From Aquitalea aquatilis (GTDB lineage: Bacteria; Pseudomonadota; Gammaproteobacteria; Burkholderiales; Chromobacteriaceae): 64,000 nt of DNA. The DNA lies in assembly GCF_005155025.1 (NCBI RefSeq), contig NZ_CP039731.1, forward strand, positions 1,240,001-1,304,000, given 5' to 3'. A program made the translations under genes and the position numbers. Positions 26,282 through 45,709 of this stretch are shown here, piece after piece. Numbering within the stretch: the stretch's first letter is position 1; the number at the start of each line of letters is the position of its first letter. The notes below the pieces were generated by a model, which was given only the letters and a program-made list of their open reading frames with translations, was not told the DNA's origin and made no database searches.

Positions 26282-26780
26282 GGCAAATCCTCCGAGAGTT
26301 GAGAACTTCTGCCTGCCATGCCGACGCCAATCGGGGGTGGCAGGCACATGGCGGGATTGGCGTTACCGGACTCTCGGAACCGGCGCTTCCAAGGAAGCTC
26401 CCACCACGGCCCGCCATAGAAAAAGGCAAAGCAATGGTGCGAGGACTGGTGCGTATAAACGCAGCAGTCCGCCGAGAGTTGAGTCGGGACGCCAATCCCG
26501 GTGCCGCTATTGAACGGCACCGGGGGATTATCAGCCGGGAAGGGGGCCAGAAGCAAGGCAGGCGGCCAGCCAAACGCCAACACCCGACTAGACGACACTG
26601 CGTGGATGAGCACGGCGGTGGATGAGCAGATTGATGCCCCGCGCAGTCCGGCAAGGCAGAGTAAAGAATGTGACGTAAAAGCGGCTGACAAACTCATGCC
26701 AGCCACCCAAGATGGCAAAGGCGTTACCAACAACAGGAAACCGGTACCAAAGCGGCTCCCACCAAGGACTGTAAAAGCAT
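26282..26780. repeat. gene-free region with degenerate short repeats
   Basis: About 500 bp without a credible gene. Several words occur twice in the same order: CGAGAGTTGAG (near 26290 and 26474), GACGCCAATC (near 26323 and 26489), GGCGTTACC (near 26359 and 26721) and GCTCCCACCA (near 26397 and 26756). This looks like two decayed copies of an intergenic repeat. It marks the host side of the junction with the AT-rich island. Confidence 0.4.
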
Positions 26781-26787
26781 AAAAAAA

Positions 26788-26818
26788 GCCCACCATGTTC
26801 AGACGTGGTGGGCTTTTT
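26788..26818. terminator. bidirectional terminator at the end of the ABC-3C operon
   Basis: GCCCACCA (26788-26795) pairs with TGGTGGGC (26806-26813), with seven A before and five T after, so it works in both directions. It lies about 75 bases past the stop of the ABC ATPase gene. Confidence 0.8.
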
Positions 26819-26888
26819 GTGGGGGAGTGGTTACTAAAGTAAAATGTTACTCAATACCCATCACTACAGAAGAAAAATAATAAAGCAT

Positions 26889-28790: not shown

Positions 28791-29280
28791 ACTTGTATTC
28801 CATTAAATGGCTTGATGCCTTCAGCCCATTTTGGCCATAAAGTTCTTGATCAGCAAGAACGTTATTTATAAATGCAATTACATCTTTTATTTCTTGGCGG
28901 ACTTCAATTTCTGTAAGAGCAAATAACTCTGGAGAGTAATTTTCTTTCAAAATCACATACGAACTACTGTTGGGTATTTTTTGTAATATCTTAGATATTA
29001 TTAAATTGTCAATAACGGAATTCTGAATTGATTTCATGGACTCGAACAAAAAATACGCATCGAAAACATTATACGAATTTTTGAATTTCTTGAATGGGTT
29101 TTTTTGCTTTTGTAACTCTCTTGGAAGAGTGATTCGAGAAACGTGAACAGGAAAGGCAAGTAGAAAGTCATATATTCTAAGGCGGTCGTGCTCAATTTTT
29201 CCTTTACTGGTTCCGTTCAGAACATTAAGTAATCGAAAAAGTGTATGGTAAGGATCTAGAGCTTTATTGTAGAGTAGCAT
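28759..29280 (-). CDS. ABC-3C middle component
   Basis: The 173-residue protein begins LLYNKALDPYHTLFRLLNVL and continues with DRLRIYDFLLAFP, a pattern of the middle components that bridge the ATPase and effector-bearing protein in ABC-3C systems. It is predicted mostly helical. ATG 29280 overlaps the stop of the preceding gene by one base (TGATG), favouring it over the ATG three codons upstream. Family membership is from memory of this gene-cluster type and the conserved order. Confidence 0.75.
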   Translation of the reverse strand: MLLYNKALDPYHTLFRLLNVLNGTSKGKIEHDRLRIYDFLLAFPVHVSRITLPRELQKQKNPFKKFKNSYNVFDAYFLFESMKSIQNSVIDNLIISKILQKIPNSSSYVILKENYSPELFALTEIEVRQEIKDVIAFINNVLADQELYGQNGLKASSHLMEYKYDSISSNIKN

Positions 29281-29834
29281 CACTTCCACTCCAGATGACA
29301 GTTGCCAGTTAGAAAATATACCATTCCTCTTAATTGGCGAGAATATATATCTAAAACATTCTCACCAAGCTTCTCATTCAACACATTTTCGATACTTTGT
29401 CTCAGAATAAGACTTAGCTCGTGATCCTGGCATTTATTTCTAATTTTAGGCTTTATTTCAGAATTGAAAATTGACTCAATTTCGGCAAGCAAGTATGTAA
29501 TGATTTTTTGAGCAGACTTGTAGTGTTGGTATTTTACAATCAGTTTCGAGACAGACTCTTTCAGGTCCTCTGCATCTTTTATCAGGTAGGAATACCCAGC
29601 TTCAGATAGTTTTGTACTCAAATCTCGAATATCAGACTTACTGTTTTTATAATGAGTAAGTTCGTCAATTAACTGATTAGTACAGGATTTGTTCTCGACC
29701 TCTTTTTTATAAAGATTAGAAAAGAGGTCAAGCTGAGTTGGACGGGGAAGGTATATTTCATATTTGTCACCAGCGGTTACGTCGCCAAGTGCAGTTATAT
29801 TTTCTTGCTTAACAACTTTTCTAGCTGAAAACAT
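29280..29834 (-). CDS. ABC-3C C-terminal-domain (CTD) protein without a fused effector
   Basis: The 184-residue protein ends in the typical CTD signature (RQLRGMVYFLTGNCHLEWK). In most ABC-3C systems this domain is fused behind a toxic effector such as a nuclease or protease. Here only about 30 residues precede the helical part, and they carry QENITALGDVTAGDK (residues 10-24). The same tail occurs in the small membrane protein encoded immediately upstream (5-nt gap), suggesting that the effector role was split off to that protein. That is inference. Confidence 0.75.
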   Translation of the reverse strand: MFSARKVVKQENITALGDVTAGDKYEIYLPRPTQLDLFSNLYKKEVENKSCTNQLIDELTHYKNSKSDIRDLSTKLSEAGYSYLIKDAEDLKESVSKLIVKYQHYKSAQKIITYLLAEIESIFNSEIKPKIRNKCQDHELSLILRQSIENVLNEKLGENVLDIYSRQLRGMVYFLTGNCHLEWK

Positions 29835-29839
29835 AGCAA

Positions 29840-30001
29840 TTACTTATGAATCTTATCGCCGGCAGTTACATCACCAGCGGAAATAATGTTCTGCTGTACA
29901 ATTTTTTTACCGCCGACCCATTTGATCGCTACCTTTACACCTAAACCTAAGACAGCCAAACCAGCAATTACAGCGAGAGCGATGATGAGTAAAGAATTCA
30001 T
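29840..30001 (-). CDS. 53-residue membrane protein with GDVTAGDK tail, likely first gene of the ABC-3C operon
   Basis: ATG at 29999-30001 to TAA at 29840-29842. The N-terminus is one hydrophobic helix (about residues 3-23, LLIIALAVIAGLAVLGLGV), then a basic stretch (KWVGGKK) and a tail IVQQNIISAGDVTAGDK. The tail aligns almost residue by residue with positions 6-24 of the next protein. It is the first gene of a tightly packed four-gene set. No strong ribosome site is seen (upstream is A/T-rich). It could be a membrane-active effector or an anchor for the CTD protein. Confidence 0.7.
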   Translation of the reverse strand: MNSLLIIALAVIAGLAVLGLGVKVAIKWVGGKKIVQQNIISAGDVTAGDKIHK

Positions 30002-30310
30002 TTTGATTTATAGAGAGAGTATGAAAAAGGTTCTCTAAAGATAACTCATACGAAATGCATAATGCAAAAATTTCTACTATGGAATGTACATCTAGTGATA
30101 CTTCAAAACAGACGTGGCGAGTGTAAGCATTTGATTGTATTGAATTTATTTACAACCAAGATTGAAAGTAGAATGATTTATCATGTCACCTGCAACCTAA
30201 AGATGAAAAGAATCAGTGCATCTCCTGGTTCGGATGTGTTGATTTGTGTGAGTCAGAAATTATGTGTGCAGCCGTAACTTTCACCGCTCAATCGAAGGTC
30301 TGCTAAGGCC

Positions 30311-30341
30311 AAAAAAAAGCCACCGTTCTCGGTGGCTTTTT
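30311..30341. terminator. native gyrB terminator, now cut off by the transposon
   Basis: GCCACCG (30319-30325) pairs with CGGTGGC (30330-30336), loop TTCT, with eight A on the left and five T on the right. If the transposon is removed, this hairpin lies about 70 bases downstream of the gyrB stop, in the right orientation to end gyrB transcription. Confidence 0.75.
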
Positions 30342-30406
30342 CATTAACTGAATCAGTAGCTTTTCACTAACCTGACGCAACTATACTGTTGGTGTCACCC
30401 GTCAGA

Positions 30407-30411
30407 GCTTA
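30407..30411. repeat. 5-bp target site duplication GCTTA, left copy
   Basis: GCTTA directly precedes the left transposon terminus. The identical pentamer follows the right terminus at 43245-43249. Five base pairs is the duplication made by Tn7-family transposases. Confidence 0.9.
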
Positions 30412-30512
30412 TGTAGGATCCCATTTCTGTCTAGATTTGGGTCTTTGCCAAATCAACGAGGTTCTAGCTGAAAGTGGGACGGATCAGGTACCGGCGTCCC
30501 ATTTTCGTAGAT
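30412..30512. repeat. left transposon end with three TnsB-type sites
   Basis: Sites of the form TCCCA-(5-8 nt)-TCTAGAT or a near variant occur at 30419-30436, 30463-30479 (opposite orientation, TCTAGCTGAAAGTGGGA) and 30497-30512 (TCCCATTTTCGTAGAT). The last two lie inside the 3' end of tniQ, so the coding sequence and the transposon end overlap. Confidence 0.7.
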
Positions 30513-32441
30513 GATCCTCTGCCAGGCTTTATCACGTCGCTTCACCGTGTCGTGCCACTTCGTCAGATCGCCAACACTGTGCTTGTCGATGAACTGGTCA
30601 AGCGCTTCAGAACGAGTATATACCAGCTGGCGGCATGCTTCGATGCTGGTTCCCCGAAGGGGGTAGATCGATACTGCCTTCAGCATGAGCATTGCTTTTC
30701 TGGGGGAGCGGCCGATCCTGTCCGCGATCTCGGTACCGAAGATGTGTTGCCGGAGGAAGCGATCGACATCCACCTTGCGTACCCTGGAGCCCTGATGTTT
30801 CTGGTTGCCGATTTTTTGAGCTGGAATGTATTCATTTTGGGTTAGCCAGTAAGCAACTTGCTGTTTCACCCCTAATACTTCCGCAAGCTCTGGAATCGTA
30901 ATCCAGTTGACTCGATCTGTTTGCATGGTAGCTCGCCACTGGATCAGATCCTTGCGCTTGAACACCCAGCGGCTGATGCCTGCTTTGCCGATGAGCGTTT
31001 TGGTCAGCACCAGCGTCCCCGCTTTGACCTCCTCTACCAACGACACGATCTCGTCCGCGTTCCACTGCCAGTAGTGCAGCACATCCGCTAGCGAGACTTC
31101 ATCATCATCTACACTGTAGGTGCGTGGCAGTTCCTCGCCCAGTTCTGCTAGCTGGTATACCTCTGTGCTGGATATGCACCATGGTAGGTGCTGCTGGTCG
31201 TTCACTCGCCTGGCTGATGGGAAAAGTAGTTTCAATATTCGTCGCATCCGGACTTTGCCCAAGCCGAGAATCTCCATGGCTTTGGTCATCGTGATCTCGC
31301 CAGCCAAATCCTCCTCGACTTGTGCCAACTGGTCTTTTCTAACCATCAGGAAATGTCGGCCCCTAGTACTGAACGACTCTTGTCCATCCAGTTGCCCAGA
31401 GCGGATAAGATAGCGCAGCCTGGCCATCGAGATGCCTAATCGCTCAGCAGCTGCTTTGCCAGTAATCCACTGAACATTTTCGAAGATATCTTCGAGTATG
31501 GAGTTGGGCAAACGTTGATTTCTCTTGGCAAGCGAGCCTTTCCAGTCATGAGCCATCCACTGGAAAAAGGCATATCGCACCGGCTCGTAGATACCACCGC
31601 GCAGCCCACCTTTAAATAAGTACTGGTATGCATCCTTGAAAACGGCCTTCAGACTCATCCTGTGCTTTCCCCCGGTGTTTTGCAGCACGTCGAGGGTCTG
31701 GTGGAACTTCTCGGGCCAAAAGACCAGCATCTCTGCTGCCAGTGATGAAATGGCCCAGGAAACAGCCATCGATCCCGCATCAGCAATTTTGAGGGGTTTC
31801 AGTCCGGCAGCGGGATCCAGATACGCACCCAAATATCGGAGCAGCGATTGAACTTGGGCAACTGTCATTTCATTGAATGGGTATCCCTGCTGATAGCGGA
31901 TGTCCTGTCTGTGCAGAATCTGCTCCAGCACCTCGCCGAGCAAAATGCTGGCTGGCGGCGCGTCCTCCGGTATTTCTTGCCGCAGGTCTGCGCCACAGTT
32001 GCAGCGCAGCAAGTTATCCCGCTGCCAGGTCAGGTGTTCGCCACAGCTCGAGCATTGGTCGATCAACCACACGCCATGCTTATGGCAGGCGTCAAAGTGC
32101 AAAACCTCCCAACCAAGCCGCCAGCGTGGATCCTCTCCCAAGCAGTATGGGCAAAACCGGGCGTGCTGCCGATTCCAGATGCCGGGATGCTCTTGCTGAA
32201 GCTGGGCCACGTATCCCACCTGCTGATGCAGTTCCTGGTAGAGCTGTGGATGTGGCAGTAGCTGTTGTTGCAGCAAAGCTTCCGGATTGAAGGCAATGCC
32301 AATCTCCTCCAGGTCACGCAGGTTCATAAAGTTAGCTTCTGCTAGTCTGAACAGATAGCCAGTCGGCCCCTCGCTCCGGGAAGGATGGGGGCGGATCAAC
32401 AGAGTTGGTACTGGTGGCAGTGGAGTAGTGCCGTCATGCAT
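30453..32441 (-). CDS. tniQ: TniQ/TnsD-type target-selection protein
   Basis: The 662-residue protein has an N-terminal TniQ domain with zinc-binding pairs (C97/C100, C119/H122, C130/C133, C147/C149; FCPYC, DACHKHG, CSSCG). A long C-terminal part follows, apparently with several small helix-turn-helix units (for example ITGKAAAERLGISMARLRYL and ITIPELAEVLGVKQQVAYWL). TnsD-sized TniQ proteins bind a chromosomal attachment site and recruit TnsC. Since the element sits exactly at the gyrB stop, this protein probably recognises the 3' end of gyrB, which is inference. The start overlaps tnsC by 8 nt. Confidence 0.88.
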   Translation of the reverse strand: MHDGTTPLPPVPTLLIRPHPSRSEGPTGYLFRLAEANFMNLRDLEEIGIAFNPEALLQQQLLPHPQLYQELHQQVGYVAQLQQEHPGIWNRQHARFCPYCLGEDPRWRLGWEVLHFDACHKHGVWLIDQCSSCGEHLTWQRDNLLRCNCGADLRQEIPEDAPPASILLGEVLEQILHRQDIRYQQGYPFNEMTVAQVQSLLRYLGAYLDPAAGLKPLKIADAGSMAVSWAISSLAAEMLVFWPEKFHQTLDVLQNTGGKHRMSLKAVFKDAYQYLFKGGLRGGIYEPVRYAFFQWMAHDWKGSLAKRNQRLPNSILEDIFENVQWITGKAAAERLGISMARLRYLIRSGQLDGQESFSTRGRHFLMVRKDQLAQVEEDLAGEITMTKAMEILGLGKVRMRRILKLLFPSARRVNDQQHLPWCISSTEVYQLAELGEELPRTYSVDDDEVSLADVLHYWQWNADEIVSLVEEVKAGTLVLTKTLIGKAGISRWVFKRKDLIQWRATMQTDRVNWITIPELAEVLGVKQQVAYWLTQNEYIPAQKIGNQKHQGSRVRKVDVDRFLRQHIFGTEIADRIGRSPRKAMLMLKAVSIYPLRGTSIEACRQLVYTRSEALDQFIDKHSVGDLTKWHDTVKRRDKAWQRIIYENGTPVPDPSHFQLEPR

Positions 32442-33480
32442 TGCTTGCCCCTCCTTTGGTTGACCGTAATCCGAGTTTCATGGCGACGGGCGAGCCGACG
32501 GGATCCTTGCGTGTATGCTGGTAAAAGACCTCTCCAGGTTGCGTCAACGGCCGTAATGGTGACTCAGGATGGAATGGGTTCAAGATGTCTGGCACGTCCT
32601 TCCAGATGCGCTCGCGGAAACCGGCAGCTAGCACATCAAGCGACAAGGTACTCAGCCCGGCCAGGTTGGCCGCCGATACGGCTCCTTCCAACAGCTTGAT
32701 GGTGTAGTCGACTAAACCAAAGCTTGCCGCATGGATGCGCCGGGCCAAGTTGGCCTCGTACAAGGGAATTTCGCTTTCCATCGGCAGGCACGAGGCAATG
32801 GCTTTGAGCAGACCGCGGTACTCGATGAAGTCGGCCTCATCCTCAAGAGAAAAGGGATCAACCGGAACACTTGGAGAGAAGCGACGAGACAGTTGCTCAT
32901 TACTGCGAATGACAAGTTCAGCTGCGGGTAAGCCGCACCCGACTATGCCCAGCCTGGTACTTTCCAGTAGATTCTTCAGCCAGTCAGTGACATCTCGAAA
33001 TGCAGCCACGGTAGGGGGGTAGAACAGATGCTGAAACTCATCGAGCAGCAACATTTCCACGCCACAGCGCTTGATGAATGCTACAAGCCGGGTCGTCTTC
33101 TCGGGTGCTGTACCGCTGTGTGACTTATGGTCACCCATCGCTTCAAGGATGGCCCCAGCCAAGCTCCGCACCGTTGGAGAGGATGGCACCTTCGCAACTA
33201 GAACCGGTAGATGTGTCCGTTGTCCCTCGAAAGCACGTGGATACTCCGCTTCATACGCCTCGAGGATGGTGCTCTTACCTGCACCAGAAGGGCCAATCAG
33301 CAAAACACCGCCCCCCACCCCATGGGTGCGACGGCGATGATGCAACTCGGCGATCTGAAATAGCGCGTTCCGGAATCGTTGATGGCAAATCGGTTCCAGC
33401 AGCAGCTTGTAGCCCAGCACCTTGTCCGAGGTAAAACCGGCAGCGGGTACAAACTTCTTCATCATCAGAAGGGGATCCAT
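32434..33480 (-). CDS. tnsC: TnsC-type AAA+ transposition regulator
   Basis: The 348-residue AAA+ ATPase has Walker A GPSGAGKS at residues 63-70 and Walker B LLLDE at 144-148, followed by the sensor region GIVGCGLPAAEL. In Tn7-like systems TnsC polymerises on DNA at the site chosen by TniQ/TnsD and activates the transposase. The ATG overlaps the tnsB stop (ATGA) and the stop overlaps tniQ, so the whole set is translationally coupled. Confidence 0.9.
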   Translation of the reverse strand: MDPLLMMKKFVPAAGFTSDKVLGYKLLLEPICHQRFRNALFQIAELHHRRRTHGVGGGVLLIGPSGAGKSTILEAYEAEYPRAFEGQRTHLPVLVAKVPSSPTVRSLAGAILEAMGDHKSHSGTAPEKTTRLVAFIKRCGVEMLLLDEFQHLFYPPTVAAFRDVTDWLKNLLESTRLGIVGCGLPAAELVIRSNEQLSRRFSPSVPVDPFSLEDEADFIEYRGLLKAIASCLPMESEIPLYEANLARRIHAASFGLVDYTIKLLEGAVSAANLAGLSTLSLDVLAAGFRERIWKDVPDILNPFHPESPLRPLTQPGEVFYQHTRKDPVGSPVAMKLGLRSTKGGASNA

Positions 33481-35444
33481 CAGACACCCCCTTTCTTGGG
33501 CAAGACCGAAAACTCAGGTAAGTCGTCGCCCAAGCCGTCCGGCAGGTCTACTGGAGGGGCAACCTTCTTCCGTCTGGCGGGTTTTCTGGCTTCGGCCAAC
33601 GGGTCCTGCTTTGCCAGTGCAGCCTCGCTGTTCAGGTTGAACTGGCGTGCCCCCGACTTCCGGTAGCCCATCTTTTTGTGCTGCAGTGCCGCTTGCGCCA
33701 TCTCCTGAATTTCGCGCTTTGCTTCCAGTAGCTCCGGTGTATTGCACTGCTCGCCGAATTTTTTGCGAGCATGGGCGCGAATAGTGCGGTGCATTTCCCT
33801 GGTGAGGCCCGCGGCGTACTCCATATCTCTGGCTGGAACACGGAGGTAAACCTTGCTGTCCGGATCCAGGACGTGGATATGGCTGACCTGATCTTCGTAG
33901 TACTTGATATCCACCGGGAGGTTTTTGCCGGTGCGACGGCGAATCAGCTGCACAAGGTGGTCGTTGTAATGCAGCCCGTCGAACTCCACGCCGTAATGGA
34001 ACAGCGTGCGCTGGACGGGGATGCCGGCAATCAGCTCCAGCTGCTGCGGGTTGACCGGCAAAGCAATGGGCGTTGTCTGGGCCGACTCTTGCCATCGGTC
34101 CAATGGCCGGCTGTTGATGCCCCGGTGTGGCGTGACGTTGTAAACATCGACGATCCACTTGGTGATCAAGTGGGTCAACGTCTGCATATCCAGGCAAGCC
34201 TGCTTTTCTGATTCGTAGTCACCTCGCTGCTTCGGATTGGAAAACGTGGTCCCAGGCAGGGTGTGAATGTGACCCGCACTCATCGTACGAATGTAGCGCT
34301 CGATCCCCCCTTTTTGGTAAGACATCTTCGAGCCGCAGAACAACACCACAATGCTCAACTCCAGGCAGCCTTGTTCAAACCCGGTGCTGTGAAGGTCGGG
34401 CCCATTGTCTACCGCAACTAGCTGCGGGATACCGTAGGCTGGCCAGCAATTCTTGATGTCCGGAAATTGAGCGAGGAGATCATCTTTTGGCAGGATGGCA
34501 CGCCTCAGGCATTGCAAGAGCGAGTTGGCCGATGGCGCACCGATGCTGATGTAGAAGCCAACGATCATTCGTGAATAGTGGTCAATCGCCAGGGTAATCC
34601 ACGGCCGTCCCAGCGCCAGGCCTGTCACCAAGTCGATGATGATGATATCCAGCGGCGTATGGTCGATCTCAATGCGCTCCAGAATGGCTTGAGTCTTGAC
34701 CATCCCAATGGCGGCCCGGTACTTCATGCGTGTGGCTTCAGCCCCTTCCCGAGCCAGATCAACGAGGTCTTGTTGAAGCTCCCCCAGCCAGCGGTAAACT
34801 GTGGTGCGCCCCGGACATTTCATCTGCTCATGTGCGGGCAGTACCTGGTTGATAGCCTGAACACGCGCTTTAATCCGTTCATAGACAGTAAGCTTGGGCA
34901 GCTTGTTGTCTGTCAGGTAAACCTCGGCGATGACCTCTTCAAAGATGGCGTAACTTGGCTTGTGCTGGTGGATTGAAGCCGAGCGATTCCACGGAATCAG
35001 CTTCAAAATGGACCGCGTTTGCCGGTAACGCCGCCACCAGGCTGAAACGGTCGACGGACACGGCGGATCTGTATCACCGATCTCTTCTGAGATTTCACGG
35101 ATACGTTCTTCCCATACCGCCGAGTTATAGGGTGTCTGCTCGGGATTCAGCTTCTGCAGATAATGTAGCCGGCGTTTGGCAATCTCCTGGATTTTGGGCG
35201 GGTAGGTCGATAGATCACGGGGGGTAACCACGTAGATCACATTCCCCAGATTGGCCAGCGACTGCTCATCGATCAGCCACTCTTGTGACTGCCAGCGCTC
35301 CAAGAGTTCGGCATATGTCAGGCTCAGAATTTCGCCGTCCTCGGAGCACAGCTGCAACTTGCCACTGGCGAGTCTCCGGTCCAGTTCCCAACGAGTCTGT
35401 CCGGCGATGAAGCAAAGTCCACGCTTAAAAGTAAATCGCTGCAT
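33480..35444 (-). CDS. tnsB: TnsB-type DDE transposase
   Basis: The 654-residue protein has an integrase-core domain with a clear catalytic triad: D261 (EIDHTPLDI), D346 (VAVDNGPD) and E382 (KGGIERYIRT). Helix-turn-helix regions precede it and a Mu-type C-terminal beta-barrel and basic tail follow. TnsB binds the transposon ends and joins 3' ends to target DNA. ATG 35444 is preceded by GGGAGG; the longer frame to 35471 is not needed. It overlaps the end of tnsA by 20 nt. Confidence 0.92.
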   Translation of the reverse strand: MQRFTFKRGLCFIAGQTRWELDRRLASGKLQLCSEDGEILSLTYAELLERWQSQEWLIDEQSLANLGNVIYVVTPRDLSTYPPKIQEIAKRRLHYLQKLNPEQTPYNSAVWEERIREISEEIGDTDPPCPSTVSAWWRRYRQTRSILKLIPWNRSASIHQHKPSYAIFEEVIAEVYLTDNKLPKLTVYERIKARVQAINQVLPAHEQMKCPGRTTVYRWLGELQQDLVDLAREGAEATRMKYRAAIGMVKTQAILERIEIDHTPLDIIIIDLVTGLALGRPWITLAIDHYSRMIVGFYISIGAPSANSLLQCLRRAILPKDDLLAQFPDIKNCWPAYGIPQLVAVDNGPDLHSTGFEQGCLELSIVVLFCGSKMSYQKGGIERYIRTMSAGHIHTLPGTTFSNPKQRGDYESEKQACLDMQTLTHLITKWIVDVYNVTPHRGINSRPLDRWQESAQTTPIALPVNPQQLELIAGIPVQRTLFHYGVEFDGLHYNDHLVQLIRRRTGKNLPVDIKYYEDQVSHIHVLDPDSKVYLRVPARDMEYAAGLTREMHRTIRAHARKKFGEQCNTPELLEAKREIQEMAQAALQHKKMGYRKSGARQFNLNSEAALAKQDPLAEARKPARRKKVAPPVDLPDGLGDDLPEFSVLPKKGGV

Positions 35445-36063
35445 GATTGCCTCCCTCAGGTAAGTGCACAAGGGATGCAGGTGTGAGTACTAGCGACAGG
35501 TCAGCGATAAGCAAGCCCTTTGCTATCAGGGCATAGGCGACACCCATGCCGAAAATATCCATGCATTCCTGGAGGGTTGCGTAATCATGCCCTTTCAGTG
35601 TTGCTGCAACCCCCTTGGCTGACGGTAAATGTTCTGGAGGGTGCTTGTACCAATGTTGTAGTTTCCTAAGATTGCTGAACTGAGGCTCTTGGCGGATTTC
35701 ATGTTCAGTCAGAATCAGAAAGTGTTCACCCTGCTCTTGCAGATACAGCGCTATCCGCTGGTATTTGGCCTTCACCACTGGACGTTTGAGCTCCTCTGCG
35801 GGCTTGACCTCAATGAGCAATGAAGTCTCATCGCACAAGTTAACGCGTACATCAGGGACATAACGACACATCCTTTCGCCGTCCCAATAGATAACCTCCT
35901 CTGGCTGCTCCTGATAGCTGATCACACCCGGTGACAGCTCAACTAACATCAGCGCATCTTTCTCTAGAGGGGACTCCCAGACCACCATCCTGTTGAGTTT
36001 TTTAGAAGGGGAGTCACCGCGGATGTGCCGCCCCCGGCGGGTAACGACTTTACGTACTCGCAT
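35425..36063 (-). CDS. tnsA: TnsA-type endonuclease
   Basis: The 212-residue protein has the restriction-enzyme-like active site of TnsA: E34 (ESPLEKDA), D71 (YVPDVRV) and E85-x-K87 (IEVKP), followed by a C-terminal winged-helix part. TnsA cuts the 5' ends so that the element moves by cut-and-paste. All three catalytic positions are intact. AGGAG lies seven bases before the ATG and abuts a strong hairpin in the leader. Confidence 0.9.
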   Translation of the reverse strand: MRVRKVVTRRGRHIRGDSPSKKLNRMVVWESPLEKDALMLVELSPGVISYQEQPEEVIYWDGERMCRYVPDVRVNLCDETSLLIEVKPAEELKRPVVKAKYQRIALYLQEQGEHFLILTEHEIRQEPQFSNLRKLQHWYKHPPEHLPSAKGVAATLKGHDYATLQECMDIFGMGVAYALIAKGLLIADLSLVLTPASLVHLPEGGNHAAIYF

Positions 36064-36364
36064 CGTATTCTCCTGGTAGCGCAGGCAAGACTTCTCCCTG
36101 CGCTACCACGCATCTGTTTAGGAAAAGCCAATCGCAGGACGAGCGAAGCCGCCGTTCAGCAGCTTGCTGACCGTTTTTGGCTTGAAATGGGGGAATGTGG
36201 CTTGACCGCTAGGATGCGCGAGACGATACTGAGCTTGTCTAGGGCAAAGGTTTCGGCTTTTGCATCAAAGGGCTAGCCACTGTGCTAGCCTTTTACATTT
36301 CTGCTCCTCCTTCAAATTGATGTTGCTGGGGATACTCCCGGCAAGGGCAGTTCCTCTTCTTTCC
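36064..36364. other. tnsA leader and intergenic region
   Basis: These 301 bases contain the tnsA upstream region with the inverted repeat at 36074-36108, and a hairpin GGCTAGC/GCTAGCC near 36269-36291 flanked by A and T, a possible bidirectional terminator. No gene is convincing; an 83-codon rightward frame over 36025-36276 has no ribosome site. Confidence 0.45.
36069..36108 (-). promoter_or_regulatory. hairpin in the tnsA leader touching the ribosome site
   Basis: TGGTAGCGCAGG (36074-36085) and CCTGCGCTACCA (36097-36108) form a perfect 12-bp stem with an 11-nt loop. The AGGAGA ribosome site of tnsA is 36069-36074, so its first base is in the stem. It may be an operator in DNA, a fold limiting tnsA translation in RNA, or both. 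Confidence 0.6.
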
Positions 36365-36625
36365 TCAACATGCTTCATGTGGACTGGGGGCCGTTGAGCG
36401 GACATCCCAAAGCCATGATGCGACATCGCACGTCAGGGCATACCGCCCCCTTCTTCCCGGCAAAGTGAATATGCGTACCTCCAACTTTCCTTGGCGGATT
36501 GCTTTGTCAAAGCCGGCCCAAGTCTTGAAGCCCAAGGCTTGCCATAGCACCGCATCGCCCATCAATGGTCCATAGGCATCCAGCAGACTGCGCTGCAATT
36601 CGTCGAAGGAGGCTGAGGTAGTCAT
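36365..36625 (-). CDS. small putative DNA-binding protein (86 aa)
   Basis: The 86-residue protein contains LWQALGFKTWAGFDKAIRQG followed by FTLPGRRGRYALTCDVASWL, a pattern seen in small excisionase- or AlpA-like helix-turn-helix proteins carried on mobile elements. It reads toward tnsA and is divergent from the 304-residue gene. A regulator of the transposon or its cargo is possible; no function is proven by the sequence. Confidence 0.6.
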   Translation of the reverse strand: MTTSASFDELQRSLLDAYGPLMGDAVLWQALGFKTWAGFDKAIRQGKLEVRIFTLPGRRGRYALTCDVASWLWDVRSTAPSPHEAC

Positions 36626-36713
36626 GGTCAGGTGAAATCAGATTGGGCTGGATATAGAGGAGTGATACCAAACTCTGTGGTAACGTGAAAGCGGCCATGA
36701 AAAGGGGAGTTTC

Positions 36714-37628
36714 ATGATACCAAGTGATGTAAAGCGGATGGGAAGGCCCCGCCACTCGCCGGTAGAGAGGTTGCGAGCCAAGCTGTGGTACTACGCGGTC
36801 AAGTCGAGAACCTCACTTAGTGACTACCAGCTTGATCTGTTCTTTCTGGAGAAGCTGGGGCGTCGGCCGAAAGATCCCCAGATGCGTAGCCGGATTTTCG
36901 AAACAATACGTTTGCACGGCACGCTTCCTTCTAATGGAAATCATCCCAAACGCGATTTCGATCTGATTCAACTGGTGGAGGAGGAGACTGCCTTTGCCGG
37001 TACGGCAGAGCTTTTTTACTCCCCTTATTGGCAGCTTTTGACGCGTAATGACTTGGAAATTGTTGTTTACCACGACATTGCACAGGCGGCGATGAGTCGA
37101 TTGGGGCTAGCACGAACGGACTATTACGGAGAAAAATCTATTCGGAACATTTGCCATCAGAGTCATGAGAAGGTGATGCCGAGTTTGCCGATTCCCAACG
37201 ATTATATGTATAAAATGTATGGACAAATGCTACATAAGGTGATGAAAAGTGGCTCGCCAACATTGGACAATCTAGTTCTCCTGGGGGCCCTGTTTCGCGA
37301 GGCATACTTGGCATGTGCCTTAGAGATCGCCATTCAGGTCAGGGATTGTTACTGCGAGTTACTAACAGATTATGTGTGTCAGGACTGGCTTGATCCAATT
37401 GCTAAAGCATTACAGGAAATAGGTGAAGGCTATCTGGTTTTCTCCCATGCTTATGATTACATGTATGGACCAGCTGAGAAGCCTCCCTATGACGATTTTC
37501 CTCTAGCGGTTGTCGAGCGCCCGATCTGGTACGCAGGCGACGTAACGTCCATGAATCAGTCTGGTCGGCAACTGGAGGAGTGGCGCAGGCTAGAGCTCTT
37601 GAAAAAACAAGGCCTAGAAGGCGTCTGA
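36714..37628 (+). CDS. unrecognised cargo protein (304 aa)
   Basis: A soluble, mostly helical 304-residue protein with a basic N-terminus (VKRMGRPRHSPVERLRAKLWYY) and no catalytic motif that I recognise. GGGGAG lies before ATG 36714. Base composition is lower in G+C than the transposition genes, so it may be later cargo. It lies between the small DNA-binding protein gene and the IS3-side genes. Confidence 0.7.
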   Translation: MIPSDVKRMGRPRHSPVERLRAKLWYYAVKSRTSLSDYQLDLFFLEKLGRRPKDPQMRSRIFETIRLHGTLPSNGNHPKRDFDLIQLVEEETAFAGTAELFYSPYWQLLTRNDLEIVVYHDIAQAAMSRLGLARTDYYGEKSIRNICHQSHEKVMPSLPIPNDYMYKMYGQMLHKVMKSGSPTLDNLVLLGALFREAYLACALEIAIQVRDCYCELLTDYVCQDWLDPIAKALQEIGEGYLVFSHAYDYMYGPAEKPPYDDFPLAVVERPIWYAGDVTSMNQSGRQLEEWRRLELLKKQGLEGV

Positions 37629-37690
37629 TAATGTTCCCTTCGCAAGATATTTGCGGAATTCTATAGCCAACAGAATAGCTTGGGCTTCAC

Positions 37691-37969
37691 CTACTCGACT
37701 TGACGACAAGCGGCCTCAGCCCTATCTACCAAGGCATCAATCGCTTCCGTCAATGCGTGTGGAGCGGAATAGGAAACGGATAGCATCCCATGCTTTTCCT
37801 TGATGTCCATCCAGTGAAAACCTTGTGTGGCTCCCCCTTTGAGCAGCTCAGCTACGCCCGCACATAGAACGGCGATAGCCGGTAGCCAGCCTTCTGGTAC
37901 GCTATTGTCTAGCCGCCGGCCTGATTCGAACTGCCAACGGTAAAGGTTATGGATGTCATCCCGGTTCAT
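37691..37969 (-). CDS. unrecognised small cargo protein (92 aa)
   Basis: The 92-residue protein starts MNRDDIHNLYRWQFESG and ends in a helical segment (HALTEAIDALVDRAEAACRQ). GAGGA lies six bases before ATG 37969. The start is only 22 bases from the left end of the IS3-family element, so its original promoter may have been replaced or lost. No family assigned. Confidence 0.55.
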   Translation of the reverse strand: MNRDDIHNLYRWQFESGRRLDNSVPEGWLPAIAVLCAGVAELLKGGATQGFHWMDIKEKHGMLSVSYSAPHALTEAIDALVDRAEAACRQVE

Positions 37970-38054
37970 GCTGTCCTCGCTATATACGACCTGAATCGTC
38001 CCTCCTTTCCTAGACACTTCGAGAGCCTCACACTAGGCCCCACAAGGAGGTGTC

Positions 38055-38333
38055 ATGAGCAAGCCGCGTTTCCCCGAAGAGTTCAAGATTGAAGCGGTCA
38101 AACAGGTAACCGAGCGTGGTTACCCAGTGGCCGAAGTCGCCAGCCGCCTCGGCGTCTCTGCCCACAGCCTGTATCAATGGCTGAAACGCTATGACCCCAA
38201 GCGCGCCACACCGGTCGAATCTGCAGACCAACAAGCCGAAATTCGACGCCTCAAGGCAGAGCTCAAACGGGTCACCGAGGAGCGCGACATCCTAAAAAAG
38301 GCCGCCGCATACTTTGCCAAGGAGTCCGGGTAA
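38055..38333 (+). CDS. IS3-family transposase OrfA
   Basis: The 92-residue protein is a helix-turn-helix (KQVTERGYPVAEVASRLGVS, then AHSLYQWLKRY) followed by a leucine-zipper-like helix, standard for OrfA of IS3 elements. AGGAGGT lies before the ATG at 38055. It is joined to OrfB by a programmed -1 frameshift. Confidence 0.9.
   Translation: MSKPRFPEEFKIEAVKQVTERGYPVAEVASRLGVSAHSLYQWLKRYDPKRATPVESADQQAEIRRLKAELKRVTEERDILKKAAAYFAKESG
38294..38300 (+). promoter_or_regulatory. programmed -1 frameshift site A_AAA_AAG
   Basis: The zero-frame codons read CTA AAA AAG, giving the slippery heptamer A_AAA_AAG near the end of orfA. Shifting by -1 enters the orfB frame upstream of its first ATG and yields the fused OrfAB transposase. 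Confidence 0.85.
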
Positions 38334-38392
38334 GGTATGCCTTCATCCGGGCCCACGCGCAGCAATTTCCAGTTCGACGACTGTGCTGGGTC

Positions 38393-39205
38393 ATGGCAGT
38401 GCACCCCAGTGGCTACTACGCCTGGAGAGCATCCCCGCATTCACCGCGAGCGCGTGAAGACCAGCGCTTGCTGGGGCACATCAAGCAGGCTTGGCTCGAA
38501 AGTGGCGGTGTCTATGGTTATCGCAAGGTGCATGACGACCTGCAGGCTCAGGGAGAGCGCTGTGGCAAACATCGTGTGGCACGACTGATGAAGCAGGAGG
38601 GCTTACGTTCGCAGACGGGTTACCACCGGCGTCCTGGGCATTACAGTGGCCGCCCGGCAGTGGTGGCACCGAATCACTTGCAACGCCAGTTCACTGTGAA
38701 TGAGCCGAATAAAGCCTGGGTGACCGACATCACTTATATCCGCACGCATGAGGGGTGGTTGTACCTGGCGGTGGTGCTGGACCTGTTCTCGCGGCAGGTG
38801 ATTGGCTGGTCGATGCAGTCACGTATCGATAGAGAGCTGGTGCTGAATGCCTTATTGATGGCGGTATGGCGGCGTCAGCCCAAGCAGGAGGTACTGGTGC
38901 ATTCCGACCAGGGAAGTCAGTTCAGTAGCTACGACTGGCAAGATTTTTTGAAGGCACATCGCTTGGTACCCAGCATGAGTCGGCGCGGGAACTGCCACGA
39001 CAATGCTGTGGCTGAGAGTTTCTTCCAGTTGTTGAAGCGGGAGCGTATCAAGCGAAAAACCTATCACGACCGGGAGGAAGCTCGTCGTGACATCTTCGAT
39101 TACATCGAGATGTTCTACAACCCGAAACGCCGGCATGGTTCCGCAAACGGGCTATCGCCGGTAGAGTTTGAGAAGCAATATTTCCAACGGCTCAAGAGTG
39201 TCTAG
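38393..39205 (+). CDS. IS3-family transposase OrfB (integrase core)
   Basis: The 270-residue frame shows HTH_21 (GVYGYRKVHDDL) and the DDE core: first Asp in WVTDITYI, second in HSDQGSQF, Glu in NAVAESFFQLLKRE. The frame is open upstream to the frameshift site, so translation probably comes mainly from the OrfAB fusion and not from ATG 38393. It looks intact. Confidence 0.9.
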   Translation: MAVHPSGYYAWRASPHSPRAREDQRLLGHIKQAWLESGGVYGYRKVHDDLQAQGERCGKHRVARLMKQEGLRSQTGYHRRPGHYSGRPAVVAPNHLQRQFTVNEPNKAWVTDITYIRTHEGWLYLAVVLDLFSRQVIGWSMQSRIDRELVLNALLMAVWRRQPKQEVLVHSDQGSQFSSYDWQDFLKAHRLVPSMSRRGNCHDNAVAESFFQLLKRERIKRKTYHDREEARRDIFDYIEMFYNPKRRHGSANGLSPVEFEKQYFQRLKSV

Positions 39206-39223
39206 AGAAGCCGGGGCGATTCA

Positions 39224-41063
39224 TTGCATCAAGGTCCAGACAAAAGCCATCGGTGAGAAGGCTTGGCACGCCCTCAACATGGATTGGCGCCCGGCATTTC
39301 TAGACCCCACCTTGGACGCTTCGGACAAGGCGCTTGACTTCAAGCCTACGTCACAAGCATGCGAATCATCCGAAACAAATCTGAGTGGCACATCCATCAC
39401 CATCACAGACCTGCAGAGCGACTGGTCTAAGCAGAAACTCGTGGAAATTGCCTCGCTTCACCTTGCGAAGCTAGCAGACCCGTTCGCCAAACATCGTGCA
39501 AACAAATTTATGGAGGTCACATTTCAGGATGAGGTGATACCGGTTCCGACGCTCGATAAAGAGCCTTTGAACTATGTTGATGCGGTGGTAGAAGCGAATC
39601 TTCGCTACGACGACAATGATGCTCCGATTCTAAAGGTTCACGTTAACTATATAACCCACAAAAAGGAACGCACGCTGGAGCTTAGTGGCGATGCTCTTCG
39701 AGCTTGCGTTCGAGAGGGTCTCGAAAAACGCACCTCCAAAAGCAAACCACTTGTTGACGCAGAGATCGTTGCACGAGCGTTGAACCATCTTGGGCCATGG
39801 GAGCTGAAATTTTACTGGTTTAACCGTGGTCGCATACAGCGTAAGCACCGGGAGTTATATGATAACCAGATAAAAAGTTTTCTAGAGCAATGGTCTGGTG
39901 GCCTGTTGATTTATCGTGACGGTTATCGCGTGTATCCATACGGAGGACGCTCCGATGACTGGCTGGACCTAGACAAGAAGGCCTTAGCCTCCTCGGCATA
40001 CAAGTTGAACCGTGCGCAGATCGTGGGCTACCTCAGGCTCTCGAGTATTGCAAACCCCGCACTCCTCGATCAAACCAATCGGGAAGGTTTTCGAGACTCT
40101 CCCGACCGAGAGGCGCTTAAGCGAGTGCTACGCTGGGTAATTGCTGGTTCTGTAAGACAGTTCCTCGAGCAAGTTGATCGTGAAATCGAGCCACCTCTTA
40201 CTGAGGTAAAACAGAAGGTAGATCAACAAATTACAACATCGAAGGGACTTGCGGTCGAGGCGCTGCGGAGCATCAAAAGAGCAGCCCCAACTGAAACAAC
40301 AAACGTCGCCACAGTCATGCGTGCGTTTGACCAAGTCTCGGAAGCGTGGGAACGCGCGAAGCTCCGAATCGAAAACTTTGACAAGGAAATCGAAGGCTAC
40401 ATTCACCTGGCGGGGGTGGGGCTAATGCTTGAGTTTATTGCGCATGAACTGTCACGCGTAACACAGGACACATTGAAAGCGGTTACTAGCGGGAAGATGT
40501 CGCCACTGGCCGTTGAAGCACAACTGAAGACCCTAGAGAAACGGGTCCGAATTCTCGACGAGCTCAGTATTCCTGGTCGCCAACTACGATTCCAACAGTC
40601 CATTCTCGACATTGCCCTACTACTAAGCGATTTCCATCAAGCCAAGGCTGCGCGCAGCAGCATTACGCTCCGCGTCACACCGACATCGGAGAAAAATCCT
40701 TGGGAGGAAAAAGTCGAGAAGGGGCAGGTTCTTCAGATTTTGGACAACCTTATAAGCAACTCTTTCTACTGGCTTGACAACCGATTCGACAAGAGCGAGC
40801 CCGGCGTCATCGACATCCAAGTCGTCAAGAGTGCACGCCAGGTGCGAGTAACGGATAACGGTCCAGGCGTTCCAAACGACCGCAGAGAATTCATCTTCGA
40901 GCAATTTGCAACGACCAAGCCTCCTCGCGAAGGACGCGGGCTTGGCCTTTACATCGCCCGCAGGCTTGCAGAAGAGAACGGTGCAACACTGGAACTCGCG
41001 CCGCCCGGAGAGGACGGAATGGCACGAACGTTCATTCTCGAATTCGGAAATAAGACACCCTAA
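39224..41063 (+). pseudogene. GHKL (MORC/Hsp90-like plus histidine-kinase-like) ATPase, N-terminus removed by IS3
   Basis: The frame continues from the IS3 end. Directly after the junction comes QTKAIGEKAWHALNMDW, which belongs to the middle of an N-terminal Hsp90/MORC-type ATPase domain, so its nucleotide-binding N-box is missing. An S5-like region follows (LLIYRDGYRVYPYGG), then a coiled linker with an H-box-like IAHELSRVTQD. A complete second ATPase domain of the kinase type ends the protein (LDNLISNSFYWLDNR, RVTDNGPGVP, GRGLGLYIARRLAEENGA). An internal ATG at 39279 might still start a shorter protein. The partner gene follows after 54 nt. Confidence 0.7.
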
Positions 41064-41117
41064 CTAAGCATTTCAAAATGAAATCGTCATCAAGAAATTG
41101 AGGCGTAGAGATTCGTT

Positions 41118-42941
41118 ATGCCATTGAATATTCGTAAGGCTGTTGTCATCGACGACGCGTTGGGCCCACCACCCCCTGGGTTGGTACAGCAGGCGCAGAA
41201 AGATAACTGGGCTGATTTCGTCTTCCGCTCTGAAGCAGCAGTTAACGCACTAAATCGGGAACTCTTTACTGAACAACCGCTCGATGCGGAGGCCCTCGTC
41301 GAAACGCTAACTAGCCAGCATTCGCATTTGACCAGGCTTTGGCACTTACTAAGGGATGGAAAGATCCCTGAAGCGAACTTTGCCTTACTCTTCGAAGAAG
41401 CGGAGGCCGAAATGATGGCGCGGGCAGGTTCGGCGAATTTGGTTGTTGAGTATCTTCAACAACTCGTCGGTACACAGAACGTTTCGACTTTTTGGGCATA
41501 CGATGGGGCAACCGAAGCCCTTGCGGCAGCGGATGTTGCTTTTGTTGACTTTTACCTCAACAACGATGAGACAGAAGCAAATGCTCTTGACCGCATCGCA
41601 GCAGCTGCTCCCCAACTTAAAGGCCCGACGCTTCTTTTCTTTATGTCGTCACAGGCAACCCTCGAACAGCAGCAAAAAGTCCGGGAGAAGATTAATCGGC
41701 GTAGCGCCTTCTTTGATGTCATGCTCAAGACGGACATCAATACGGATTTCTTGGATTCCAAAATAGGGACCAAACGAGAGTCTTTCGATAGCAATCGTGC
41801 ACTGGAGAATGTTATCAACCAGGCGGTCGACGCAGCTAATGCCGCGGTGGCCGAGTTTCGTGTGCGATGTGCCGAACTCGAGGTACACGACCTGAGGCTC
41901 CTAAATCTGACTAGATTGGAAGCCGAGGGGGAATCTTTGCAGGAGTACCTAACGTGGCTATTCTCTGAAGCGCTTGCAGCCAAGACGCGCCGCTTAGCTC
42001 TCAGCCATGTACAAGACAGCGTCATTGAACCTGCGGCGATTGGGTTTTCAGGCCAAGTATCCCAAGGTACAGTTCTCTTCGACTTGTTTTCTGAGGTGGT
42101 GTTTGGCCCCCCCTTGGCGGCAGACAAGGGAATTCGTTTCGGTGAGGTTTTTCAATGTGTGGCCGAGCCGAACGAATACCTTGTGGTGCTAACTCCGGCT
42201 TGTGATTTGCAGCGGTGCGACCCTGATAAAACTGTATTGTGTGCAAGGGCGTTGGCGCTTGATTACAGCGGTCCTCGCGAAATCACAAAGTCAAAGTTAT
42301 TCGGAAAGCTAAATGAAGGGAAGCTTTGTCACCTGCTAACAACAGGCTCGAGCGGCAACGGCAAGCCGATTTTTTCCCTGCTTACTTGGGCCTCCGCGCG
42401 AATCACGACTTTGACCGTTGCGGAGCTAAAGGCCGCAGAATATAGACGTGTGGCACTGATGAACGAAATCTTCGCACAGGAGGTGAAGGAAGACGTTCTC
42501 CGAGTCCTAGGGCGTGTGGGCACTCAGATTGATCCGCCGCCCCCGCAAGCGCTCGATGCCGTGCTATCTTGGAAAACAGCTGCCGGCAACGCTTGGCAAA
42601 CAGAAGCAACTCCCGCGAATCGGTTCGCTTCAGCCTTGCTCACCTTCTCCGCAGACAAGAACGGCGCAGTTGCGGTGATTTCCGATGAATTCAAACTTTG
42701 GGCAAAGCGAAAAATATTCGACAGCTTCGATGGGCCCCCCCCTGAGAGTCTGACTAGATGTCTAACCACGCTTGCGGCTGAAAGCCAGTTCAAAATGAAT
42801 AAGGCTTTCAAATGTGAGAGCGGGGCTTTGACTGTCAGGCTCATCGACCCCACACTAAATCCACCCAATGAGCCCAACGCTTGGATCGTGATAACACTAC
42901 TTACAGGCTCCCCACAGGAGCAAAACGAAGACGACGGGTAA
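41118..42941 (+). CDS. receiver-like-domain protein partnered with the GHKL ATPase (607 aa)
   Basis: The first 210 residues fit a divergent response-regulator receiver domain with an insertion: acidic pair D12/D13 (AVVIDDALG), phospho-acceptor candidate D144 (AFVDFYLN), S177/S178 (LLFFMSSQ) and K204 (VMLKTD). The remaining 400 residues, including YLVVLTPACDLQRCDPDKT, match nothing I recognise and may be an effector. With the ATPase upstream it suggests a two-component-like system, possibly antiviral given its place as transposon cargo. That role is inference. Confidence 0.65.
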   Translation: MPLNIRKAVVIDDALGPPPPGLVQQAQKDNWADFVFRSEAAVNALNRELFTEQPLDAEALVETLTSQHSHLTRLWHLLRDGKIPEANFALLFEEAEAEMMARAGSANLVVEYLQQLVGTQNVSTFWAYDGATEALAAADVAFVDFYLNNDETEANALDRIAAAAPQLKGPTLLFFMSSQATLEQQQKVREKINRRSAFFDVMLKTDINTDFLDSKIGTKRESFDSNRALENVINQAVDAANAAVAEFRVRCAELEVHDLRLLNLTRLEAEGESLQEYLTWLFSEALAAKTRRLALSHVQDSVIEPAAIGFSGQVSQGTVLFDLFSEVVFGPPLAADKGIRFGEVFQCVAEPNEYLVVLTPACDLQRCDPDKTVLCARALALDYSGPREITKSKLFGKLNEGKLCHLLTTGSSGNGKPIFSLLTWASARITTLTVAELKAAEYRRVALMNEIFAQEVKEDVLRVLGRVGTQIDPPPPQALDAVLSWKTAAGNAWQTEATPANRFASALLTFSADKNGAVAVISDEFKLWAKRKIFDSFDGPPPESLTRCLTTLAAESQFKMNKAFKCESGALTVRLIDPTLNPPNEPNAWIVITLLTGSPQEQNEDDG

Positions 42942-43200
42942 TCCCCTGTGTCACCGAGCACATTTGTGCTTGGATCAACGATGACCGGATCGACGCCCCC
43001 CGGAAGCGACTAGCTACAAAATGATTTCTAGCTGAAGGGGTGGTCATTGGTAGTAGCCTCTCTAGTGTTTGTGGCACTGACTACTTTTGACTAGTGGATT
43101 TGTGAATGCTGCAAGTCTCATCGATTACTTGGAAATAAAAAATGGCCTCCAAAGTTGGAGGCCATTTGCTAATCGAAGTGCACAGAGCAGAATCCCAAAA
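42942..43200. other. gene-free stretch inside the right transposon end
   Basis: No gene seen. It includes an inner TnsB-type site at 43026-43044 and the hairpin at 43136-43171. Confidence 0.6.
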
Positions 43201-43244
43201 ATCTAGAAAAGTGGGAAATATCTAGATATTCGTGGGATCCTACA
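43026..43244. repeat. right transposon end with three TnsB-type sites
   Basis: Reading inward from the tip, sites lie at 43220-43237 (ATCTAGATATTCGTGGGA), 43201-43216 (ATCTAGAAAAGTGGGA) and 43026-43044 (TTCTAGCTGAAGGGGTGGT). The inner one matches the second left-end site over TTCTAGCTGAA. Confidence 0.7.
43136..43171 (-). terminator. transposon-borne terminator facing gyrB
   Basis: AATGGCCTCC (43141-43150) and GGAGGCCATT (43157-43166) form a perfect 10-bp stem with a 6-nt loop. On the minus strand it is followed by a T-run (43140 downwards). It lies about 80 bases from the gyrB stop and can replace the native gyrB terminator displaced by the insertion. Confidence 0.75.
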
Positions 43245-43246
43245 GC

Positions 43247-45709
<2,463 letters not shown>

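Follow-up and report, generated by a model that had tools for sequence, protein, structure and literature searches.

A Tn7-like transposon downstream of gyrB in Aquitalea aquatilis, with the gyrB 3′ end as its probable attachment site

The element, its ends and its transposition genes

We analyzed a 64,000-nucleotide (nt) stretch of the Aquitalea aquatilis genome (NZ_CP039731.1, positions 1,240,001 to 1,304,000 of the forward strand), hereafter called the window, in which a Tn7-like transposon of 12,833 base pairs (bp) was located immediately downstream of gyrB. The boundaries of the element, its transposition genes and the adjoining gene are given below in window coordinates (aa, amino acids; ORF, open reading frame).

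30407..30411, no strand: target-site duplication, outer copy, GCTTA (TAAGC on the gyrB strand)
30412..43244, no strand: Tn7-like transposon, 12,833 bp, with perfect 12-bp inverted termini and a 5-bp duplication
30412..30479, + strand: gyrB-distal end, with a terminal site, TCTAGATTTGGG from 30430 and TCTAGCTGAAAGTGGGA at 30463-30479
30453..32441, - strand: tniQ, putative TnsD-type target selector of 662 aa (TniQ domain 16-125, HTH_17 at 513-565)
32434..33480, - strand: tnsC, TniB-type AAA ATPase (domain match above the curated cut-off)
33480..35471, - strand: tnsB transposase (D270/D355/E391, numbered from the ORF start)
35425..36063, - strand: tnsA endonuclease (TnsA N-terminal domain)
43140..43167, - strand: rho-independent terminator-like hairpin downstream of gyrB (12-bp stem, 4-nt loop, T-rich tail)
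43188..43244, - strand: gyrB-proximal end, with a terminal site at 43227-43244 and TCTAGAT-type sites at 43208-43226 and 43188-43207
43245..43249, no strand: target-site duplication, gyrB copy, GCTTA, including the gyrB stop codon
43247..45637, - strand: gyrB, intact (ORF and homologous genes), its 3′ end being the proposed attachment site

The 12-mer TGTAGGATCCCA, which forms the inverted termini of the element, starts at 30412 on the forward strand and at 43244 on the reverse strand. Exact copies were found at these two positions only in the 4,359,891-bp host genome, which contained no further copy of the perfect element ends; allowing 1 mismatch added 1 forward match genome-wide, and a reversed-pattern control also gave 1. 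Each end consisted of a terminal copy and two TCTAG-type sites, recognized by eye and conserved in relatives. The site layout of the gyrB-proximal end, likewise read by eye, recurred in other ends of the same family (A-type ends, described below), and the distal layout was similar in relatives, with the inner site TCTAGCTGAAAGTGGGA overlapping the 3′ end of tniQ. These repeats presumably bind TnsB. The 5′-TGT...ACA-3′ ends, the several putative transposase sites and the 5-bp duplication are all characteristic of Tn7-like elements. On the gyrB strand, the duplicated TAAGC is the gyrB stop codon plus GC. Perfect 12-bp termini, GCTTA outside both tips, three related TnsB-type sites per end and an insertion on the gyrB stop codon had been described in the first-pass annotation of this DNA, and all of these were recovered here, the termini and pentamers base for base. 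The perfect duplication and ends suggest recent mobility of the element, which is plausible.

The genes tnsA, tnsB, tnsC and tniQ were arranged in one row in the same direction as gyrB, pointing to the gyrB-distal end. TniQ (PF06527, E = 3.4e-12; also HTH_17), the TniB-type TnsC and the TnsA N-terminal domain were matched above curated cut-offs; TnsB matched Mu-transpos_C marginally under the cut-off and the TnsB of Tn6677 at 1.3e-55, and TniQ chains in the PDB were matched by the window TniQ. The candidate residues D270/D355/E391 of TnsB, D71/E85/K87 of TnsA and K69 of TnsC, which we take to be catalytic, were present in 18/18, 15/15 and 13/13 homologue rows, respectively. The domain matches and the conserved residues agree with the earlier description of the gene set as intact, and the combination of a TnsA-type endonuclease, a DDE TnsB and a TnsC ATPase is that of the Tn7-like core. 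Two more TniQ-domain genes were observed in the host genome outside the window (G000:C1:3422083-3422481 and G000:C1:795153-795431).

Tn7-like elements at gyrB in the host family and beyond

We compared the TniQ of the window with its relatives (genomes, contigs and loci are designated G, C and L). The TniQ family, with 55-87% identity, comprised 14 loci including the window element, distributed in the host family Chromobacteriaceae, Silvimonas and Iodobacter. Twelve of these were at gyrB, as the first-pass annotation had anticipated for elements with the same TniQ, one was elsewhere and one (L041) was undecided. Ten of the 14 loci were found on the gyrB contig, downstream of the gene and on the same strand, and the gyrB linkage of the Silvimonas (L039) and Iodobacter (L040) loci assumes that contigs C6 and C65 are the records of those loci. 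The other two gyrB members, in G019 and G051, were assigned to gyrB over a contig break by their matching 5-bp duplications. The 5-mer at the far end was identical to that at gyrB in 10 members: TAAGC, AAAGG, GATAT, GAGGG, AATTT, AGGTG, AAACA and AAAAA (the last two in G019 and G051, across a contig break), and the duplications GATGT in L039 and ATGGT in L040. From these sequences, we take gyrB to be a real site of attachment for Tn7-like elements.

The 3′ ends of gyrB were then classified across 61 host-family genomes, of which 59 were retained (gyrB was not matched in G008 and was truncated at a contig end in G033), and four gyrB ends from Silvimonas, two Iodobacter and G207 were added as TniQ carriers. 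The classes were set by pattern: A is the window family, “D?” is mixed, and the class without a recognized end includes G018 and G002, which resemble altered ends. The resulting 63 ends comprised 21 A, 10 B, 4 C, 9 D? and 19 with none recognized, and the 59 host-family ends comprised 18, 10, 4, 8 and 19, respectively. A transposon-like end, belonging by pattern to one of several end families, was present just past the gyrB stop codon in 40/59 host-family genes.

Genes of the Tn7-like type were present behind such ends. B-type elements measured 17.9 kilobases (kb) in G059, with duplication GATTC, and 12.7 kb in G048, with AAGGG, and in both cases an A-type end came immediately after the element. 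In G050, G028 and G038, the elements of C type carried tnsB, tnsC and tniQ, plus a diverged tnsA upstream of tnsB. We had considered these elements to be TnsA-less, which was ruled out by a frame of 257-266 aa upstream of tnsB in all three genomes; the frames matched a TnsA profile (E 2e-7 to 4e-12) and, below the cut-off, Pfam TnsA_N (E 3e-4 to 0.015). Identity to the window TniQ was 30% in G031, 27% in G084, 22-23% in G009, G048, G053 and G013, and 18-19% in the C-type elements, all of which were at gyrB.

A-type ends started 5-8 nt and C-type ends 10-11 nt after the last gyrB sense codon. In G050, a 29.5-kb C-type element, a deeply diverged Tn7-like one, was inserted 5 nt inside an A-type end. 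Its duplicated TGTAG equals the first five A-end bases, thereby rebuilding the A end, and the outer duplication of the A element, AATTT, has remained identical to the bases at gyrB. Because of this nested insertion, we conclude that the insertion point follows gyrB and not the downstream DNA; the tandem A-A arrays found in G039 and G046 agree with a distance counted from gyrB. In codons -8 to -4 of gyrB (window 43259-43273; L ATT GCG CGG AAT), the third bases were strongly conserved, also at many element-free sites, which is atypical where the guanine-cytosine content at third codon positions is mostly >0.8. A-type sites were slightly more uniform in these bases than the remaining 42 sites, 23 of which have an end of another type. 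Codon -7 was also ATT at 12/19 sites without a recognized end.

An empty site, as sought in the first-pass annotation, was found for another member of the family (in G041) and for an element of a different family at the same site (in G004). When the element was removed from G041, 114/156 aligned positions were identical to G035 and 108/156 to G022, with the differences mostly beyond the native terminator, and the C-type G004 minus its element was identical to G003 at 140/151 and to G007 at 139/150 positions. The window minus its element was identical to G005 at 121/152 and to G002 at 113/155 positions, and the uninterrupted junction in these two genomes runs from gyrB into an old B-type end, not a native terminator.

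The hairpin at 43140-43167 lies just inside the gyrB-side end of the element. A hairpin with a T-rich tail, no more than 155 nt from the stop codon, was found at 21/21 A, 10/10 B, 4/4 C and 7/9 D? sites, and 0-7.5% of 40 single-base shuffles per site were positive. The hairpins of A and C elements are internal to the element, and their stems vary among members. It is probable that the element hairpin replaces the displaced gyrB terminator.

Beyond the family, a profile of 14 gyrB-type TniQs matched 11 of 398 Pseudomonadota genomes at E 1e-25. The TniQ was encoded on the gyrB strand, 11-24 kb downstream of the gene, in G000 (the host genome), G207, G084, G833, G705, G675 and G514, was not linked to gyrB in G740, G803 and G806, and was split over contigs in G508. 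The linkage was found in 7/10 judgeable genomes, or in 5/8 when the profile rows G000 and G084 are taken out, and we estimate the chance of a 25-kb same-strand stretch being hit in a 4-Mb genome to be <1%. G207 had already been matched in a class-level search at E 1e-30, in which 2/369 genomes were matched, one being the host genome. The gyrB-linked relatives include other families, with G514 outside the order, and a TGT-type sequence was present at most 14 nt past the stop codon in gyrB-linked genomes. On the TniQ tree, the gyrB labels took at least 3 changes, compared with a shuffled mean of 8.7, and 0/500 shuffles were as low; because the root is undefined and the branches are long, single and several origins of gyrB targeting are indistinguishable in this tree. 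TniQ relatives from a plasmid search that spanned most of the query were ~25% identical, and the plasmid TnsB proteins among the matches listed were all <60% identical. The gyrB element on G207:C1 (L137 17453-20000, into L138) was observed to have a dual-selector layout, with two consecutive TniQ-family genes (344 and 608 aa).

Target selection and alternative explanations

On the basis of the observed ends and their duplications, the insertion site and its distance, the empty sites, the stacked elements and the hairpins, we propose, with a probability of about 0.9, that the window carries a Tn7-like transposon (TnsA+TnsB, TnsC and one TnsD-type TniQ) that uses the 3′ end of gyrB as its chromosomal attachment site. 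The C-terminal winged-helix-like modules of TniQ would read the last part of the coding sequence of gyrB, and the gyrB-bound TniQ would recruit TnsC. TnsAB would then insert the element, presumably by cut-and-paste, 5-8 nt past the last sense codon with the tniQ end distal to gyrB. The stop codon of gyrB is retained, and a replacement terminator would be provided by the putative hairpin of the gyrB-side end. Later elements would enter at about the same distance and displace the earlier ones outward, which would generate an island.

The window TniQ resembles selectors of the TnsD type that read DNA directly. Its winged-helix-like modules were found within about 320-441 and 508-625 and are mutually related: comparisons among the C-terminal modules m1, m2, m4 and m5 gave hhalign E-values of 4e-6 to 2e-4 (5e-3 for m2-m5), and the controls gave E-values of at least 0.013, except for one overlapping-window pair. 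A long C-terminal region with multiple helix-turn-helix domains is the hallmark of direct selectors in the passages of PMC10293859 devoted to them, and the 662-aa TniQ, as far as a low-confidence structure model allows, has such an extension with several winged-helix-like modules. This argues against a choice of target by a guide RNA or a partner such as TnsF, in which TniQ would be only an adaptor, the role that it has in type I-F3 CRISPR-associated transposons (CASTs) according to a part of PMC11406308 and in Tn6022 according to a part of PMC10293859. The PADLOC models that best match the window TniQ are indeed CAST TniQs, and conserved companion ORFs are present; these ORFs, however, were not found in every gyrB member, there was no Rfam match in 26500-43700, and no Cas effector (Cas8/5, Cas7, Cas6) was found in two sets of ten scanned ORFs, CRISPR arrays not having been searched. 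We regard an adaptor role of this TniQ as very unlikely. More improbable still is that the location at gyrB goes back to a single chance insertion that was inherited or spread by dnaA-gyrB homologous recombination. Such an origin would fit the membership of most hosts in one family, the decay of some ends and the A-type ends that lack a family TniQ, but it is strongly contradicted by the differing duplicated 5-mers at 5-8 nt offsets, by the several end families, by the empty sites within the host family, by the tandem and nested copies, and by the gyrB-linked relatives in other families and, with G514, outside the order. It is also unlikely, to a lesser degree, that the gyrB-side hairpins are ordinary and have no part in sparing gyrB. 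A hairpin was also found at 17/19 sites without a recognized end, as any gyrB terminator would give, whereas the A and C hairpins are internal to the elements, differ in their stems among members and are placed between gyrB and the cargo.

Several observations, including the hairpins at sites without a recognized end, weigh against the targeting of gyrB by TniQ that we propose. The far end in G036 is flanked by ATTAG, whereas gyrB has AAGGG, and no perfect far end was found on inspection in G059 or at L041. The TniQ frames of the gyrB members G041 and G018 are shortened to 510 and 410 aa, with no tnsABC match beside them. Among the five proposed TniQ modules, m3 was unrelated to the other four in the hhalign profile comparison, and the structure model of TniQ was poor, with a mean predicted local distance difference test score of 51. 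No convincing partner end with a matching duplication was found outside the close relatives. Furthermore, 11/18 host-family A-type ends were in genomes without a family TniQ, and therefore many of them are decayed or not self-mobile; they might be cargo-only or decayed elements that are movable by others. A second copy of the family in G046 (G046:C1:1377851-1398772; L186, L084, L187), which is complete and far from gyrB, interrupts a methyl-accepting chemotaxis gene with the target-site duplication GCTGG and is flanked by MCPsignal on one side and PAS on the other. Because this copy sits in a chemotaxis-receptor gene, gyrB targeting is not absolute, and it is possible that the copy reflects a second, less specific pathway. 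TniQ relatives at unrelated loci, which the first-pass annotation had held to be incompatible with its reading, thus occur once within the family, and also among distant TniQs, and related Tn7-like elements adjoin other genes. By Pfam, the neighbors were a class II D/K/N tRNA synthetase (lysS-like) at L143, an enoyl-ACP reductase (fabI-like) at L139 and a SelR-domain gene (msrB-like) at L144; for L142, L146 and L147, a lysS neighbor was read from frames or TniQ kinship only. These lysS-, fabI- and msrB-like neighbors may be further attachment sites.

The genomes with A-type ends and no family TniQ were G014, G020, G025, G027, G040, G044, G045, G047, G052, G055 and G060, where G060 retains only a broken TniQ remnant and G045 only distant TniQs.

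In a wider sense, we consider it fairly probable that the gyrB 3′ end is a major, previously unnamed docking site for several deeply diverged TnsABC-TniQ lineages (18-32% TniQ identity) that converged on it or retained it as their transposases and ends drifted apart, with insertion measured from gyrB, terminators of their own that protect the essential gene and layered islands, built by repeated use, that gather defence genes. If so, an essential and near-universal gene would join the Tn7-like attachment sites, and the pair of TnsD-type selector and target would serve for studying how TniQ proteins read DNA. Several element families at one site would constitute a natural experiment, in which the nested insertion reveals the side from which the distance is set. 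A way for site-specific elements to spare an essential gene is suggested by the built-in hairpins, and layered islands, here with Lamassu-like genes, would be one place where defence genes can gather.

Known systems, the older island layer and the cargo

Tn7 generates a 5-bp duplication and has TGT...ACA ends. The window element shares with Tn7 the TnsABC proteins, a TnsD-type protein and an insertion point immediately after the 3′ end of a conserved gene, and differs from it in being at gyrB, not downstream of glmS as canonical Tn7 is, in a duplication that overlaps the stop codon and in tns genes distal to the target; no tnsE was recognized among the window ORFs scanned. The binding site of Tn7 TnsD is the end of the coding region of glmS, as stated in a passage of PMC2918618. 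The I-F3 CAST Tn6677 provides the solved TnsB and TnsC structures nearest to those of the window. In its relevant passages, PMC11406308 reports parE, a gyrB paralogue, as a site read directly by one TniQ; in contrast to the I-F3 CASTs and the parE branch, the window element has a single long TniQ and targets gyrB. Tn6022, at comM, shares the Tn7-like TnsABC core and chromosomal homing, but it uses a short TniQ plus TnsF according to a section of PMC10293859, whereas the single TniQ of the window element, of 662 aa, has HTH modules of its own. No tyrosine-recombinase match was found among the scanned ORFs, TnsF not having been searched by sequence.

A Tn7-like transposon with genes B479_00025-00140 is reported for Pseudomonas putida HB3267 in part of PMC4731212, and it would start right after gyrB if dnaA-dnaN-recF-gyrB are 00005-00020; the passages on this element, which we compared by description only, do not identify its site as gyrB. 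No description of gyrB as a site of Tn7-like elements was found in the literature searched, whose scope excluded supplementary tables, subscription journals and bioRxiv, and the words “gyrB” and “gyrase” were absent from the main texts of PMC10293859, PMC8649781 and PMC11406308. A listing of gyrB in some supplementary table is possible.

Outside the element, an older layer of the gyrB island was recognized.

26819..30406, no strand: older gyrB-island layer, 35% guanine-cytosine content (GC), delimited by the backbone limit
30314..30406, - strand: decayed gyrB-side end of an earlier element, family B (B-type alignment)

The backbone common to G002, G003 and G007 starts at 26814-26821, which places the island start near 26819. 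The stretch 30314-30411 matched the B-type end in G005 with 80% identity across 99 bp. The outer flank had earlier been read as running from gyrB to its native terminator, and this reading was ruled out by the likeness to a B-family element end. A LmuB-like gene at 26889-28790 (PADLOC LmuB, 4e-41) and a weak LmuC match at 28759-29289 (PADLOC LmuC, 6e-5) were found in the older layer, and these Lamassu-like genes of the low-GC layer adjoin the decayed B-type transposon end.

The remaining part of the element contained accessory and cargo ORFs.

36365..36625, - strand: 86-aa ORF upstream of tnsA (homologues at 9 loci, representing 7 other elements)
36714..37628, + strand: 304-aa divergent ORF (homologues at 5 loci, representing 4 other elements)
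37992..39223, + strand: IS3-type insertion sequence within the cargo (27-nt inverted repeats, 81% complementary)
39264..41063, + strand: histidine-kinase/HSP90-like ATPase gene lacking its N-terminus (HATPase_c)
41118..42941, + strand: 607-aa cargo protein (no library match)

In the count for the 86-aa ORF, L036/L073 and L037/L075 are duplicate records of the same elements. The 86-aa and 304-aa ORFs recur in relatives and therefore probably belong to the element core, and the 86-aa ORF may be accessory or regulatory. The pair beside tnsA also occurs in the distant G009 element. Neither the 304-aa ORF nor the 607-aa cargo protein had a match in Pfam, NCBIfam, PADLOC or PHROGs. The IS3-type insertion, which carries an rve domain, was matched by IS3 transposase models and has a 94% identical stretch in G004. 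It has replaced the N-terminus of the histidine-kinase-like cargo gene, whose remnant aligns, with 32% identity, to an 839-aa open frame of the G036 element, starting at residue 230 of that frame.

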